Assembly: GCA_903892565.1 (NCBI GenBank)
Contig: CAITIX010000241.1
Location: forward strand, 1-64,000
Direction of reading: 5' to 3'
Source: an uncultured Acidobacteriia bacterium
Lineage (GTDB): Bacteria; Acidobacteriota; Terriglobia; Bryobacterales; Bryobacteraceae
Length of the DNA stretch: 64,000 nt
Below are positions 54,860 to 61,900 of the stretch, piece after piece. A model generated the notes under the pieces. The model searched no databases, was not told where the DNA came from, and worked only from the letters and a program-made list of their open reading frames with translations. Numbering within the stretch: the first letter of the stretch is position 1; each line of letters begins with the position of its first letter. A program made the translations under genes and the position numbers.

Positions 54860-56011
54860 TTACACCGTCTGCGCTGCGGGAATCAAAGGCACGCCCCAGG
54901 CATCGTATCCGTACAACCAACTGGTATCTTCGTTGCCGCCTTTCATCCACGTATTCGCGCTGGAGATTGCTTGAATGCGCGAGACGCGTGGTTTGCGATT
55001 GGCTTCGTACAACTGGAACGCGCCCGGGATATCCTCGCCACGCGTTTCTTCAAAACAGCGCGCTAAAATCGCGGAATCTTCGATGGCAGCCGCCGCGCCC
55101 TGCGCCATGTACGGCGTCATGGGATGGCATGCGTCTCCCAACAGCGCGACGTTGCCATCGCTCCAGCGAGGGAGCGGTTCACGTTCGAGGATGGCCCACT
55201 TATGGCAATCCGGACAAGCTTCGAGCACGGCGCGAACGTCTTCGTGGAAGCCTTCATACTCGGCACGCAACTCGTGCACGTCTCCTTTGGCGGACCACGA
55301 CTCTTTCGTGATCCAATCGGCGGGTTCCGGCACACTGGTGACGAAATAGATTTCGCTGCGGTCGGCTTTCGTGTAATAGATGACGATGTGGCGATCGATG
55401 CCCCACCACTTCGTACGCGACGGGCCGATATCGCGGCCTCTTAAATGAGAAGCCGAAAAGTTCGCGCGATAGGCAATGCGGCCTTTGTGAATGGGCGCAT
55501 CCGGCCCCACGACAATGTCGCGCACCAGCGAATGGACGCCGTCGGCGCCGATAACGGCATTGGCCGTGACCTTCGTGCCGTCGGTGAACGACATCCGCAC
55601 TTCGCCGCCTTTTTGATCGAGCCCGGCAAGCTTTTTGTTTAAGTGAATGATGTCGGAAGGCAGCACGGAGGCGAGCGCCGAGTGCAGATCCGCACGATGC
55701 ATGCAGAGGTACGGGGCATTAAACAATGTCTCCGGCATCGGCAGCTCGCGGATTACTTCGCCCGTGTCCCACACGCGATTCAAGTGCGAGTACGGCATAA
55801 ACGACAGCTTGCGGAGGCGCTCTTCAATGCCGAGCTTGCGCAGCACCTTCATGGAATTCGGCATCATCTGGATGCCCGCGCCGATGCGTTCGAAGTGCGG
55901 CGCCTGCTCGTACACCTGCACGCCAAAGCCGGCCATGCGGAGTGTGCCCGCGGCGGCTAATCCTCCCATGCCTGCGCCGATGATGGCAATGGATGGTTTT
56001 CCTGCGCCCAT
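54860..56011 (-). CDS. FAD-dependent aromatic monooxygenase, 6-hydroxynicotinate 3-monooxygenase (NicC)-like
   Basis: 'IAIIGAGMGGLAAAGTLRMAGFGVQVYEQAPHFERIGAGIQMMPN', 'TKWWGIDRHIVIYYTKADRSEIYFVTSVPE', 'NVALLGDACHPMTPYMAQGAAAAIED'. Confidence 0.85.
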   Translation of the reverse strand: MGAGKPSIAIIGAGMGGLAAAGTLRMAGFGVQVYEQAPHFERIGAGIQMMPNSMKVLRKLGIEERLRKLSFMPYSHLNRVWDTGEVIRELPMPETLFNAPYLCMHRADLHSALASVLPSDIIHLNKKLAGLDQKGGEVRMSFTDGTKVTANAVIGADGVHSLVRDIVVGPDAPIHKGRIAYRANFSASHLRGRDIGPSRTKWWGIDRHIVIYYTKADRSEIYFVTSVPEPADWITKESWSAKGDVHELRAEYEGFHEDVRAVLEACPDCHKWAILEREPLPRWSDGNVALLGDACHPMTPYMAQGAAAAIEDSAILARCFEETRGEDIPGAFQLYEANRKPRVSRIQAISSANTWMKGGNEDTSWLYGYDAWGVPLIPAAQTV

Positions 56012-56060
56012 GAAGTCTCTGTCCCTTTCGTATTCGCGTTTTTGGTGGTGAACTCTTGAG

Positions 56061-56066
56061 TATAAT
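56061..56066 (+). promoter_or_regulatory. TATAAT -10 box 9 nt before the yciI-family start codon
   Basis: gagTATAATcggttccatATG; predicts a leader of a few nt at most. Confidence 0.5.
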
Positions 56067-56075
56067 CGGTTCCAT

Positions 56076-56363
56076 ATGATCTACGCCGCTATCTGCAAAT
56101 ACACGACGGACACAGACACGATCGCCCGCACGCGTCCGTCGCATCGCGAATATCTTACGGGCCTGCAGGCCGAAAACAAGCTGGTAATTTCGGGGCCCTT
56201 CGTGGGCGATGAAGGCGGGTTACTGGTGTACGAAGCCGAGAGTCCGGAAGAAGCGGAGAAGCTGGTGAGCGAGGATCCGTTTGCGGTCGAAGGCGTGTTC
56301 GTGTCCTGGGAGATTCGTCCTTGGAACGTGGTGTTTCGGAATAAGGATTTGTTGTGTAAGTAG
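56076..56363 (+). CDS. YciI family protein
   Basis: 'RPSHREYLTGLQAENKLVISGPFVGDEGGLLVYEAESPEEAEKLVSEDPFAVEGVF'. Confidence 0.92.
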   Translation: MIYAAICKYTTDTDTIARTRPSHREYLTGLQAENKLVISGPFVGDEGGLLVYEAESPEEAEKLVSEDPFAVEGVFVSWEIRPWNVVFRNKDLLCK

Positions 56364-56396
56364 ATCGCGCGGCGTGAAGTTCGCGTAGATTCCCCG

Positions 56397-56828
56397 CTAT
56401 GTGGCGCTCCAAGGATTGATCGTCTCCGCGCCGACGCCTTCGAAATCTTTCGTGTTCCGAGTGACGATGGTCAGGCCATGAGCAAGCGCGGTTGCGGCAA
56501 TCAGCGAATCAACCGCAGGTAGAGTCCGCCCCATCCGTGAGCCCCGCGCGGTAAGGGATGCCCAGCACATGGCCACATGACGATCCACAAGCAGGATTCG
56601 GCCCGAGAACCAAGCTTCCAAGTCGTGCGTCAGCCATCGCTCCAATTGGGCGCGGCGTTTACCATCGGGAAGGAGTTCAATGCCTTTTTGAATTTCCGCA
56701 AGCGTGATGATGCTCACATACTGCGATTGACGGTCCGTAGTTTCGAGCCAACGTTTCACCCTGGGCGCGGGTCCGTCAAGCCGGTTGTATTCGGACAGAA
56801 CGTTCGTGTCGATCAGAAAACCCGGCAT
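56397..56828 (-). CDS. PIN-domain toxin (VapC family)
   Basis: 'FLIDTNVLSEY', 'ITLAEIQKGIELLPDGKRR', 'AVDSLIAATALAHGLTIVTRNTKDF'. Confidence 0.93.
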   Translation of the reverse strand: MPGFLIDTNVLSEYNRLDGPAPRVKRWLETTDRQSQYVSIITLAEIQKGIELLPDGKRRAQLERWLTHDLEAWFSGRILLVDRHVAMCWASLTARGSRMGRTLPAVDSLIAATALAHGLTIVTRNTKDFEGVGAETINPWSAT

Positions 56829-56845
56829 GTGCTTGACGAAGGAAT

Positions 56846-57106
56846 TTAGACAAGATCAACAGGGCGCGGGAGATCCTTGGATCGTTCAAGATCTAGGTTT
56901 GCGCCGGCGAACGGTGAATTGAGGAGAAAATCAGATAGATTATCGAACTGCTCCTGTACGGGGCGCGGTTCGTCGGGCGCGGCCAAATCCTGCTCCAGAA
57001 TTTGCAGAGCGTACTGCTCGGCCGAGACGCCTCGCGCCGAGGCCTTCGCCTTTAGGGCGACTACATCCTCGTCCGGAAGATTAATAGTCAGGTTCACGAA
57101 TTTCAC
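56846..57106 (-). CDS. VapB-type antitoxin
   Basis: 'NLTINLPDEDVVALKAKASARGVSAEQYALQIL'; directly upstream of vapC. Confidence 0.85.
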   Translation of the reverse strand: MKFVNLTINLPDEDVVALKAKASARGVSAEQYALQILEQDLAAPDEPRPVQEQFDNLSDFLLNSPFAGANLDLERSKDLPRPVDLV

Positions 57107-57158
57107 CTTTCTCTATGTTACCCCGGCCCTAGGTCAATAGCACCGTTCTACATTTTGC

Positions 57159-57188
57159 TAGACATGCACCCTCCGCGAATCCTACAAT
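57159..57188 (+). promoter_or_regulatory. Putative promoter of rrf2: TAGACA-N18-TACAAT
   Basis: Close sigma70-like match 13 nt before the ATG at 57201. Confidence 0.45.
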
Positions 57189-57200
57189 CAACGTTTCAGC

Positions 57201-57611
57201 ATGAATATATCCGTGAAGAGCGAGTACGCGCTGCAGGCGGTCTTCGACCTTGCTACGCAACCGCCCGGAGAACCGATCAAGATCGCCGAGATCGCCAAGC
57301 GCCAGAAGATTCCGCAAAAATTTCTGGAGCTGATTCTGGCGGATCTGAAGCAAGGCGGCTTCCTGGAATCACGGCGCGGCGCCGAGGGTGGATATCGCCT
57401 GGCGAAGCCCGCCGATCAAATCCTGGTGGGCGAGGTTCTGCGTCACATGGAAGAATCCAAGAACAAGCGCACGCCGGACAACCCCTTTTCGGACATGTGG
57501 TCGCGCGTGGATGGAGCGATTTCGGCGGTGGTCGATCACACGACGTTCGCGGAGCTGGTGCGCGACTACAACAAATCGCAATCGCGATACGTGGCAAACT
57601 GGGATATCTAA
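57201..57611 (+). CDS. Rrf2-family transcriptional regulator, cysteine-free (CymR-like)
   Basis: 'MNISVKSEYALQAVFDLATQ', 'ISKR-like IAEIAKRQKIPQKFLELILADLKQGGFLESRRGAEGGYRLAKP'; no Cys in the translation. Confidence 0.92.
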   Translation: MNISVKSEYALQAVFDLATQPPGEPIKIAEIAKRQKIPQKFLELILADLKQGGFLESRRGAEGGYRLAKPADQILVGEVLRHMEESKNKRTPDNPFSDMWSRVDGAISAVVDHTTFAELVRDYNKSQSRYVANWDI

Positions 57612-57658
57612 TGAACTTCGCTGACATGATTGTTCCTGACACATCATTTTCCATATGA
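57611..57658 (+). CDS. 15-aa minicistron [15 protein letters not shown] between rrf2 and cysK
   Basis: ATG overlaps rrf2 stop (TAATG); TGA overlaps cysK ATG (ATATGA). Confidence 0.5.
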
Positions 57659-58608
57659 TCTTTCCTGATAATTCGTTCTCGATTGGGCGAACGCCCCTGG
57701 TCCGGTTGAATCGCGTGACGGACGGCGCGAAGGCGACGGTTGTCGGCAAAGTGGAAGGGCGCAATCCGGCGTATTCGGTGAAGTGCCGCATTGGCGCGGC
57801 CATGATTTGGGACGCGGAGCGGCGCGGCATCTTGAAGCCGGGCAAGGAACTGATCGAGCCGACCAGCGGCAACACCGGCATTGCACTCGCATTCGTGGGC
57901 GCGGCGCGCGGTTATCCGGTGACACTGCTGATGCCGGAGACGATGTCGATGGAGCGCCGCAAGGTGCTCAAGATGCTGGGCGCGAAAATTATCCTGACGG
58001 ATGGCGCGCTGGGGATGGGTGCATCGGTGGAGCGCGCCGAGCAGATCGTCGCGGGCGATCCGCAGCGCTGGGTGCTGCTGCAGCAGTTCCGCAATCCCGC
58101 GAATCCGGATATTCATTTCAAGACCACAGGCCCCGAGATTTGGGACGATACGGCGGGCAAGGTGGATGTGCTGGTTTCGGGCATCGGCACCGGCGGCACG
58201 ATCACGGGCATTTCGCGCTACATCAAGGTCGAGAAGAAGAAGCCGATTTTATCGGTCGGCGTGGAGCCGGCGGGAAGCTCGGTGATTTCGCAAACGCTGG
58301 CGGGCCAGCTGATGCAACCGGGGCCACATGGAATTCAAGGCATCGGCGCGGGATTTATTCCGGAAACGCTCGACCTGAAGATGGTGGACCGGATGGAAAA
58401 GGTCGAGGACGACGAATCCATCGAGATGGCGCGTCGGCTGGCGAAAGAAGAAGGCCTGCTGTGCGGGATCTCCTGCGGTGCGGCGGTGGTGGCGGCAGTT
58501 CGCATCGCGAAAGAGCCGGCCATGGAAGGCAAGACGATTGTCGTGATCCTGCCGGATTCGGGTGAGCGGTATCTGACGTCGGTGCTGTTCGACGGTATTG
58601 GGGACTAG
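57655..58608 (+). CDS. cysK: Cysteine synthase A / O-acetylserine sulfhydrylase
   Basis: '[11 protein letters not shown]', '[18 protein letters not shown]', '[20 protein letters not shown]', '[17 protein letters not shown]'. Confidence 0.96.
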
Positions 58609-58629
58609 CGGCGCGATCGGAAGCCCTGT

Positions 58630-58950
58630 AAAGGAAGTGCCTGGGAAGAAGTGGCGGGCGCTTTCTTGGGTGAATCAGGGGTGAAAGTGCCCGCCATCGT
58701 AACGGGGATTTAGTTGCTTATAAAACGACGCCGGCACATCGAAGGTTACAGGGCTCCAAATGTTTTTCCATCTGAGCCAATAAATCGTTTGCGGGACTGG
58801 TCTGGGAATTGAGGAACTGCTGAGAGAGAAACAGTGGGCGCTTTTCTGGGTGATAGGGGTGAGAGCGCCCACTGTTTGTAACGGGGATTTAGTTGTATAT
58901 AGAACGATGGCAACCTACGTTAAGGTTACAGGGGCACGAAAATATTTCCC
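58630..58950. repeat. Tandem two-hairpin intergenic element, two units with 179-bp period
   Basis: GTAACGGGGATTTAGTTG at 58699 and 58878; each unit has a GC-rich hairpin and GTAAC...GTTAC arms. Confidence 0.85.
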
Positions 58951-61900
58951 ATGCCTATCCGTCGCGTCCTGAAATCCCGATCTCACGGCCGGCTCGCGGA
59001 CTGTGCAGCGTCCGTCCTTTCGCAAGAACCCGAAAAGATTCTAATAGTTCCGAGCGTTGAAGCGGGAAATCGTTTCGCGCACTCGCTGCCGGGCGGAACG
59101 CTAGGGCTGCACCGGATCTCACTGATTTCCTGGGCAGCACAGCTATCCCAGGAGCATTTGGCGGAAAACGATCTGACGCCTGTAGGCGGATTAGGGCTCC
59201 AGGCCGTCGTCGCCCGGGCGTTACATGAAGCGAACCAGGCAGGCGAGCTGCGGTACTTTGCCCCGGTTTCCGAGTTCCCCGGTTTTGCAAAAGCACTTGC
59301 CCGGACGATTCAGGAGCTACGCTTGGCGAGTGTTCTTCCGACGCAGCTCCGGGAAACCGGCGAGGCAGGGGCGGATCTCGCGAACCTGCTGGCACGCTAC
59401 GAAGCCGAACTGCAGAGCGCTCGGCTTGCGGATCTGGCACAGATGCTGGCCTTCGGGGGCAGAGCCGCGAGAACAGGCAGCCGCCGCGCGCTCATGGGAC
59501 TTCCGATCGTCGCACTGGATGCGCTCCTCGAAACGGCAGCGCATCAGGATTTTTTCCGCGCGGTCGCACAGCAATCGCCTTCTGTCGTGGCCGCCGTCAG
59601 CTGGGACGCCGAGACGTACGAAGAGATCCTGGGCGTCAGCGCAGAAGACCTGGACGATCCGTGGGACACCTCGACACTCACGCGTTTGCGCCGCGGATTA
59701 TTTTCGCCAGAAACACTAACGGGGAAAAACGGCGGTAAACCGGAAGAGACAGGCGAGCCTACAGGCGACGCGTTCGAAATCTTCTCGGCACCCGGCGAAG
59801 GCTTGGAAGCCGTGGAGATCGCGCGGCGGATCAAGAAGCTGGCGAGCGAAGGCAAGCCGTTCGATCAACTGGCCGTGCTGCTGCGCTCGGTGGAGCGCTA
59901 TCAGCCATTGCTCGAGGAGGCCTTCCGGCGCGCGCGCATCCCCGCATACTTCAGCCGCGGCTCGCTGCGGCCATCCCCGGCAGGCCGCGCGTTTCTGGCG
60001 CTGCTGGAGTGCGCAGCAGAAAAGTGTTCGGCGTCGCGATTCGCAGAGTACTTGTCTCTATCGCAAGTTCCTGCAAAGGATGCGGCGCCGCACGAGGAGT
60101 GGATCGGGCCACAGGACGAAGTGTTGGGGCAAGACCTAGGAGGACAGTCGTCGGGCGATGCGGCGGGCAGTGCGGATGCACAAGAGCACGGCGATGCCTT
60201 GCGGCTCCCTGCGCGGTGGGAAAAACTTCTGATGGATGCAGCGGTCATCGGAGGCAGCGATCGATGGGAGAGGCGTCTTCGAGGACTCCAGAAAGAGCTG
60301 GAACTCCGCATCGCCACGGCGGAACGCGAAGACCCGGCGCAACGAGCGAGCCTGGAACGGCAGTGCGAACAACTGCGTGAACTGGAATTGTTCGCGCTTC
60401 CCGTCATCGAGCAGCTCGCCGCTCTGCCGACTTCGGCAGTGTGGGGTGAGTGGTTGGAGCAATTGGAACGGCTGGCGCGGCGCACGTTGCGCACGCCTGA
60501 GGTGGTCTTGAGCGTCCTGGCGGAGTTGGAGCCCATGGCCGGCGTTGGGCCCGTAACGCTGGAAGAAGTCGTGAGCGTATTGCAGGAGAAACTGCGTTTT
60601 CTCCGCACGGAACCAGTAAAACAAAGCTACGGCAAAGTATTCGTCGGATCGATCGAGGAAGCTCGCGGACTCCACTTCCCGGTCGTATTCCTGCCGGGGC
60701 TGGCCGAGGGATTGTTCCCGCAGCGGTCGCTGGAGGATCCGCTCTTGCTCGATGTGTTTCGGGCTTCGGTCTCCGCGAACTTGCTGACGCGTGACGATCG
60801 GGTGGAGCAGGAGCGCTTGAAACTGCGGCTTGCTGTGGGCGCCGCTGGCGATCGACTGATCGCATCGTATCCACGCATGGACACCGCCGAGGGGCGTCCT
60901 CGAGTGCCGTCGTTCTATGCGCTGGAACTGCCCCGCGCGATTGACGGACATCTGCCGGACTTAAAAGAGTTTGAGGCGAACGCTCGCGCAGGCTCCGCGG
61001 CGCGCATCAACTGGCCCGCTCCTGCGGAAACATCCGACGCCATCGACGACGCCGAATTCGATCTCGCGATGTTGGGACGTACGGATAAAGCTGCGCGTTA
61101 TCTGGTTGAAGTCAGTGAGACGCTGGCGCGTTCTCTGCGGGCACGCTGGAAGCGGTGGAATCAGAAATGGTGGGATGCCGATGGGTTGATCGTCTCCGAT
61201 CCGGACGCGCTCGAGGCATTGCAGAGCCATCGATTGACAGCGCGGGCGTGGTCGCCCTCCGCGTTGCAGAAATTCGCGGAGTGTCCTTATCAATTCGCGC
61301 TTCACGGGATCTTTGGATTAAAACCGCGCGAACAAGCGGAAGCGTTGGAGCAGATGGATCCGTTGACACGGGGAGCGTTGTATCACTCTGCGCAATTCAA
61401 ACTGCTGGGGATGCTGAAAACTTCGTCGTTGCTGCCTGCGACGCCGGAGAACTTAAGCGAAGCTTTGCGGCATCTGGATACAGTACTCGACGCCGTGGCA
61501 TCGGAGTATCGCGAAACGCTTGCGCCCGCGATTGACCGCGTGTGGAGAACGGGCGTGGAGGATCTACGCACGGATCTGCGCGGCTGGCTGCAACACGTGG
61601 CCGCAGGCGCAACAGGAAGCGATGTGGGATGGGAGCCCATGCACTTCGAATTTGCGTTCGGGTTGCCGCCGAGCACGGAGCGCGACCTCGCCAGCACAAA
61701 AGAAACCGTAACGCTCGACGAAGGCGTTCAGTTGCTCGGGTCGATTGATCTAATCGAACGTGACTTAATAGAACGCAACTTGGTAGAACGGCATTCGACA
61801 CCCGGGACGCTGCGCGTGACGGATCACAAAACCGGAAAACGTCCGCAGGCGATTCCGCTATACGTCGGCGGCGGCAAGCTCCTACAGCCCTTGCTCTACG

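Follow-up and report, generated by a model that had tools for sequence, protein, structure and literature searches.

A mini-ORF between rrf2 and cysK in an acidobacterial genome: probable scar of a duplicated cysK start

Introduction

In an acidobacterial draft genome, a reading frame of only 15 codons, here called the mini-ORF, lies between the regulator gene rrf2 and cysK and overlaps both of them. This raises the question of where such a frame came from and what it does at the junction. The window, i.e. the whole stretch of 64,000 nucleotides that was analysed, belongs to an assembly of 454 contigs with a completeness of 95.6%, and its named relatives are assemblies of Bryobacterales and of Candidatus Sulfopaludibacter. 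Our results suggest that the mini-ORF is probably a scar, left when the start region of cysK was duplicated locally where stop and start codons overlapped, and that it now likely serves as a ribosome relay.

Results

The mini-ORF carries two copies of the cysK head

The sequence of the junction was read again, and the coordinates and the mini-ORF translation of the initial annotation were found to be correct (Table 1). The TAA of rrf2 (57609-57611) shares a base with the ATG of the mini-ORF (57611-57613) in the motif TAATG (57609-57613), and the TGA of the mini-ORF (57656-57658) overlaps the ATG of cysK (57655-57657) in the motif ATGA (57655-57658). At both ends, stop and start have the spacing of a coupled pair (overlapping or at most about 10 nt apart).

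Table 1. Features of the rrf2-cysK junction (positions in the window)
Feature	Position	Strand	Remarks
rrf2	57201-57611	+	CymR-like Rrf2 regulator of 136 aa that lacks cysteines and ends in VANWDI
Weak Shine-Dalgarno GGGA in rrf2 tail codons	57601-57604	+	serves the mini-ORF start; corresponds to the ancestral cysK start context
Mini-ORF, 15 codons + stop	57611-57658	+	shares bases with the rrf2 stop (TAATG) and with the cysK start (ATGA)
44-nt insert, GC 39%	57611-57654	+	in no relative examined; no second copy in the genome
Copy 1, a truncated duplicate of the cysK head (MNFAD)	57611-57625	+	P about 0.001 when scored with a profile of CysK N-termini
Copy 2, a 10-codon duplicate of the cysK head	57626-57655	+	matches the real cysK head in 8/10 aa and 21/30 nt
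cysK, cysteine synthase A, 317 aa	57655-58608	+	TIGR01139, 4e-130; start without Shine-Dalgarno but very open

Codons 6 to 15 of the mini-ORF were compared with codons 1 to 10 of cysK. The identity of 8/10 residues that had been noted at first reading was reproduced, and 21/30 nt were identical, with two codons identical, six differing silently and two changing the residue. The preceding residues MNFAD had also been likened to CysK starts, and their likeness was indeed above chance in the profile. When the mini-ORF was subjected to 20,000 dinucleotide shuffles, the best ten-codon match to the CysK head was 6 of 10 residues, reached in 5 shuffles. No shuffle gave 8 of 10 residues, and 21 of 30 nucleotides were obtained once. 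When all 64 kb of the window were scanned in both orientations, no second match to the cysK head above 6 of 10 was found. The homology of the copy to the cysK head is not due to chance.

The insert is composed of the 5-codon copy of the cysK head and the 10-codon copy, followed by the real gene. The offset between copies 1 and 2 is 15 nt, which keeps them in frame, and that between copy 2 and the real gene (copy 3) is 29 nt, which is ten codons minus one base. Copy 2 is free of internal gaps, and the mini-ORF frame is still open.

Junctions in related genomes

The order rrf2 then cysK is common to all 23 genomes of the genus. Apart from the window genome there are 22 of these; 11 have a direct overlap of the rrf2 stop with the cysK start, and in the other 11 the two are separated by 2-24 nt; one junction of this set, L014, was assigned by eye. 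A set of 120 distinct rrf2-cysK junctions from the taxonomic order was sorted by spacing: 19 show an overlap, 44 a gap of 0-10 nt, 49 one of 11-40 nt and 8 one of more than 40 nt. The 44-nt insert was present in none of the other approximately 119 junctions examined, including those of the 22 congeners. When the insert was used as a query, its own genome gave a single match and the 22 congeners gave none that was significant. A conspecific genome was not found among the genomes searched. A MIRU-like mobile repeat was ruled out, since the element is not dispersed, being present once in its own genome and without significant matches in the congeners.

Three congeners show similar duplications. 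At the L013 junction (genome G009), a 17-nt tandem duplication that includes TGATG has generated an independent, doubly overlapping mini-ORF, MPVDI. L019 has a duplication of 13 nt, and at L030 (genome G022) 20 nt of the rrf2 tail are duplicated. All junctions in which the two genes lie 12 nt or further apart were scanned for duplications, and no match was obtained beyond those in the window genome, L013, L019 and L030. The second rrf2 tail of L030 (ANWEI-stop), located 3' of the real stop, has silent differences only and provides a Shine-Dalgarno sequence. The longest rrf2 branches in the genus are those of the L030 genome and the window genome. A third doubly overlapping mini-ORF, MTQLLPPEAL (TGATG ... 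TAATG), was observed at L186 (genome G156). It is unlike CysK, and a strong Shine-Dalgarno precedes cysK there.

Origin of the insert

The rrf2 tree and the cysK tree agree and place the window genome in the group of G002, G003, G006, G011 and G021; a foreign donor of cysK is therefore not needed. The best likelihood placement of copy 2 was as sister to its own cysK, with other branches not significantly worse over the 30 sites. The branch of copy 2 is long (0.36 compared to 0.05-0.11 for the real cysK), as expected of a copy freed from constraint. The second serine codon is TCN in copy 2 and in its own cysK, GCG (Ala) in the sister pair G006/G011 and AGY in the other members of the genus, and the shared TCN also points to a duplication inside this lineage. 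Since the copies are down to 70% nucleotide identity, the duplication is old. The uniqueness of the insert, the best, though weak, placement of copy 2 beside its own cysK and the duplications in three congeners support the proposal of the initial annotation of a scar, in which the cysK start was duplicated and the start codon was thereby moved.

At the ancestral junction, rrf2 would have ended in T(A/G)ATG with the cysK start inside the overlap and the Shine-Dalgarno GGGAG within the conserved NW(D/E)I codons. In junctions with this type of layout, the rrf2 tail codons AACTGGGAGATCTGATG hold the Shine-Dalgarno of cysK (e.g. L002, -7.3 kcal/mol). A head-to-tail duplication in this lineage, probably in more than one step, would then have moved the real cysK ATG 44 nt downstream. 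The old start would have kept its Shine-Dalgarno and the overlap with the rrf2 stop, now opening a frame of 15 codons whose end coincides with the new cysK ATG. From the 29-nt offset of copies 2 and 3, it is possible that the product was at some stage an in-frame N-terminal extension that was later broken by a one-base deletion.

The offset of copies 2 and 3 one base short of ten codons, next to the in-frame offset of copies 1 and 2, could also mean that a base is missing in the assembly and that an in-frame N-terminal extension of CysK is hidden by this error. This is very improbable, because the later one-base deletion predicts the 29-nt offset equally well, no homopolymer longer than 4 is found at the junction and the genome is otherwise of good quality, with the high completeness given above. 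The copies may instead have diverged in two separate functional genes, if illegitimate recombination had fused a diverged cysK start of another strain to the resident junction. Such an event would account for the silent-biased difference between the copies and finds a parallel in L030, where the two rrf2 tails differ only silently. However, the L030 pattern fits equally well with a coding constraint on one copy and a Shine-Dalgarno constraint on the other, and for the window genome the agreement of the two trees and the best placement of copy 2, on a long branch beside its own cysK, argue against a start from another strain, which we regard as unlikely. The local duplication of the cysK start remains the probable origin.

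The peptide is not visibly under selection

The silent bias between copy 2 and the real cysK head was polarised with the relatives. The real cysK head showed 5 silent and 0 replacement changes (P 0.0002). In copy 2, 2 of the base changes were silent and 3 were replacements (neutral expectation, P 0.24), where the ancestral codons had been inferred by hand and were partly ambiguous; a count of 4 silent of 7 changes would give P 0.027. An unpolarised simulation of neutral drift (9 random substitutions, at most 2 residue changes, P about 0.0005) had pointed to constraint, but polarising erased the signal and it was dropped, because half of the divergence sits on the constrained cysK branch. The raw 6:2 silent bias belongs to the real cysK and is therefore no evidence of selection on the mini-ORF peptide.

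A functional leader peptide that is selected at the protein level and regulates cysK had been the other reading of the initial annotation. It could draw on the 6 silent differences among the 8 differing codons and on the intact 15-codon frame with its overlaps at either end. Yet the polarised test gave no constraint on the copy, the mini-ORF is absent from all congeners compared, an outcome that the initial annotation had itself named as a refutation, it contains no Cys codon and no other regulatory codon run, and the descent from the cysK head already explains its sequence. We consider a leader peptide quite unlikely; of the pair of readings, the duplication scar was supported and the constrained leader was not. 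The peptide is most likely only a by-product. It may be under weak constraint, and selection to keep the frame open is possible, given the old duplication and the ungapped copy 2. It is extremely improbable that the Ile-ended peptide (DTSFSI) is a ligand in the CysK active site, like the tails of CysE, CymR and CdiA-CT, and tunes the enzyme that is made next on the mRNA. If this were true, MPVDI of L013, which likewise ends in Ile, would be a second case.

Translation of cysK behind the insert

The double overlap is cheap to obtain, because the TAATG was inherited and the ATGA of cysK provides a stop for any insert of 3k+2 nucleotides without an earlier stop. A random 44-mer is free of stops in 47% of the cases, and with the right frame taken as 1/3 about 16% of such inserts would produce a double overlap. 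The layout alone is therefore no proof of selection. This figure also speaks for an inert insert, where cysK is translated alone from an unstructured, AT-rich start and the overlaps of the mini-ORF are coincidental. The surroundings of the AT-rich cysK start have the lowest GC content and the second lowest opening energy of the 120 junctions, in line with an independent start. However, the real cysK ATG is without a Shine-Dalgarno (+0.7 kcal/mol) and in this respect the weakest of the 120, and rrf2 and cysK overlap or are at most 10 nt apart in 63 of the 120 junctions, which suggests that coupling is usually kept. An inert insert is thus rather unlikely.

At the ATG of the mini-ORF (57611), the upstream GGGA gives a duplex energy of -4.0 kcal/mol. 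In both E. coli and H. volcanii, coupling and reinitiation are nearly lost once the genes are about 20 nt apart, and the final 15 nt of the upstream gene are enough for coupling (PMC10666635). Since such short gaps are already disruptive, the 43-nt gap between rrf2 and cysK should uncouple the two genes unless the mini-ORF relays the ribosomes. Ribosomes ending rrf2 would reinitiate at the mini-ORF, stop at its TGA and reinitiate at cysK, and a gap that otherwise breaks the coupling would be bridged. Judged from this arrangement, and from a cysK start that is very open and AT-rich but has no Shine-Dalgarno, the mini-ORF probably relays ribosomes from rrf2 to cysK, and it is plausible that the two genes are coupled in this way.

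The Rrf2 regulator and its C-terminal Ile

The Rrf2 protein of the window matched the Pfam Rrf2 family (1.4e-29), and its nearest NCBIfam equivalog was CymR with 2.2e-23 and 82.9 bits, below the cut-off of 195 bits. CymR of B. subtilis and S. aureus was among its PDB matches. The cysK-linked Rrf2 ends in Ile at all 120 distinct junctions (57597-57611 for the tail in the window), and a Trp is found two residues before the terminal Ile (position -3) in 113 of them, typically as NW[DE]I. With one exception, the other Rrf2 paralogues are without this tail. A C-terminal Ile on CysE was absent in the ten relatives' genomes checked, including the window genome. The C-terminal Ile is known to anchor CysE and CdiA-CT in the active site of CysK, and such a tail has been noted for CymR (PMC12895370, PMC4961446). 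From its sequence, the Ile tail of Rrf2 is a candidate for a CymR-like CysK-binding tail that replaces the tail of CysE. A reasonable purpose of the coupling would then be an Rrf2-CysK complex whose partners are made in step.

Neighbouring elements

Downstream of cysK and before the following gene, a conserved hairpin was observed twice, at 58650-58712 and 58829-58891; its single-stranded parts are conserved as well (GCGGGCGC..GGGTGAAAAGGGGTGAG..GCGCCCGC..GTAACGGGGATTTA). This hairpin is present in one copy in 12 congeners (L283-L296) and in two copies in the window, and it folds with a z of about -4. The second copy in the window has a paired change of C-G to T-A in the stem. An Rfam search of positions 56000-60000 of the window gave only chance matches far under the gathering scores, and the hairpin matched no Rfam family. 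The gene after the hairpins starts at 58951 and encodes a protein of 1087 aa that is AddB-like by eye. On the other side, divergent from rrf2, a PIN-domain protein is encoded on the minus strand (56397-57106) with a small upstream ORF. The two are probably a toxin-antitoxin pair of the VapBC type.

Discussion

We regard the mini-ORF as a lineage-specific scar of evolution in a widespread type of gene coupling and not as a new system. It suggests a route by which coupled minicistrons may be born: a duplication at a stop-start overlap shifts the downstream start, the old start still receives ribosomes, and the frame that it opens can end on the new start. The four congeners with independent junction duplications form a small natural series on how an operon survives the loss of its stop-start overlap. 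The locus is also a warning: a small ORF can differ from its parent gene mostly at silent positions without being under selection itself.

The order of the genes, an Rrf2-family regulator beside cysK, and the C-terminal Ile of the regulator are shared with the CymR-CysK pair of B. subtilis (PMC4961446, PMC12895370), and so is the lack of cysteines in the Rrf2 of the window and of the closest relatives. In contrast to CymR, the Rrf2 of the window scores under the CymR equivalog cut-off and its complex with CysK is putative.

Termination-reinitiation coupling is known at TAATG, TGATG and ATGA (PMC12548453, PMC6728339, PMC10666635), and the ends of the mini-ORF use exactly these overlaps, of -1 and -4 nt. 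Unlike in ordinary termination-reinitiation pairs, a 15-codon frame stands here between two real genes, whose coupling is predicted. The mycobacterial MIRU (Supply et al. 1997), as described in PMC12548453, inserts at start codons, where its small ORF keeps the coupling; the insert described here would act likewise but is a single-copy duplicated piece of the downstream gene's own start and not a dispersed repeat. Short coupled upstream ORFs that deliver ribosomes are already known (PMC12548453). The uORF and the bicistronic design likewise place a short coupled frame right before a start without its own Shine-Dalgarno (PMC12548453), whereas the mini-ORF lies inside an operon between two genes and was probably born by duplication.
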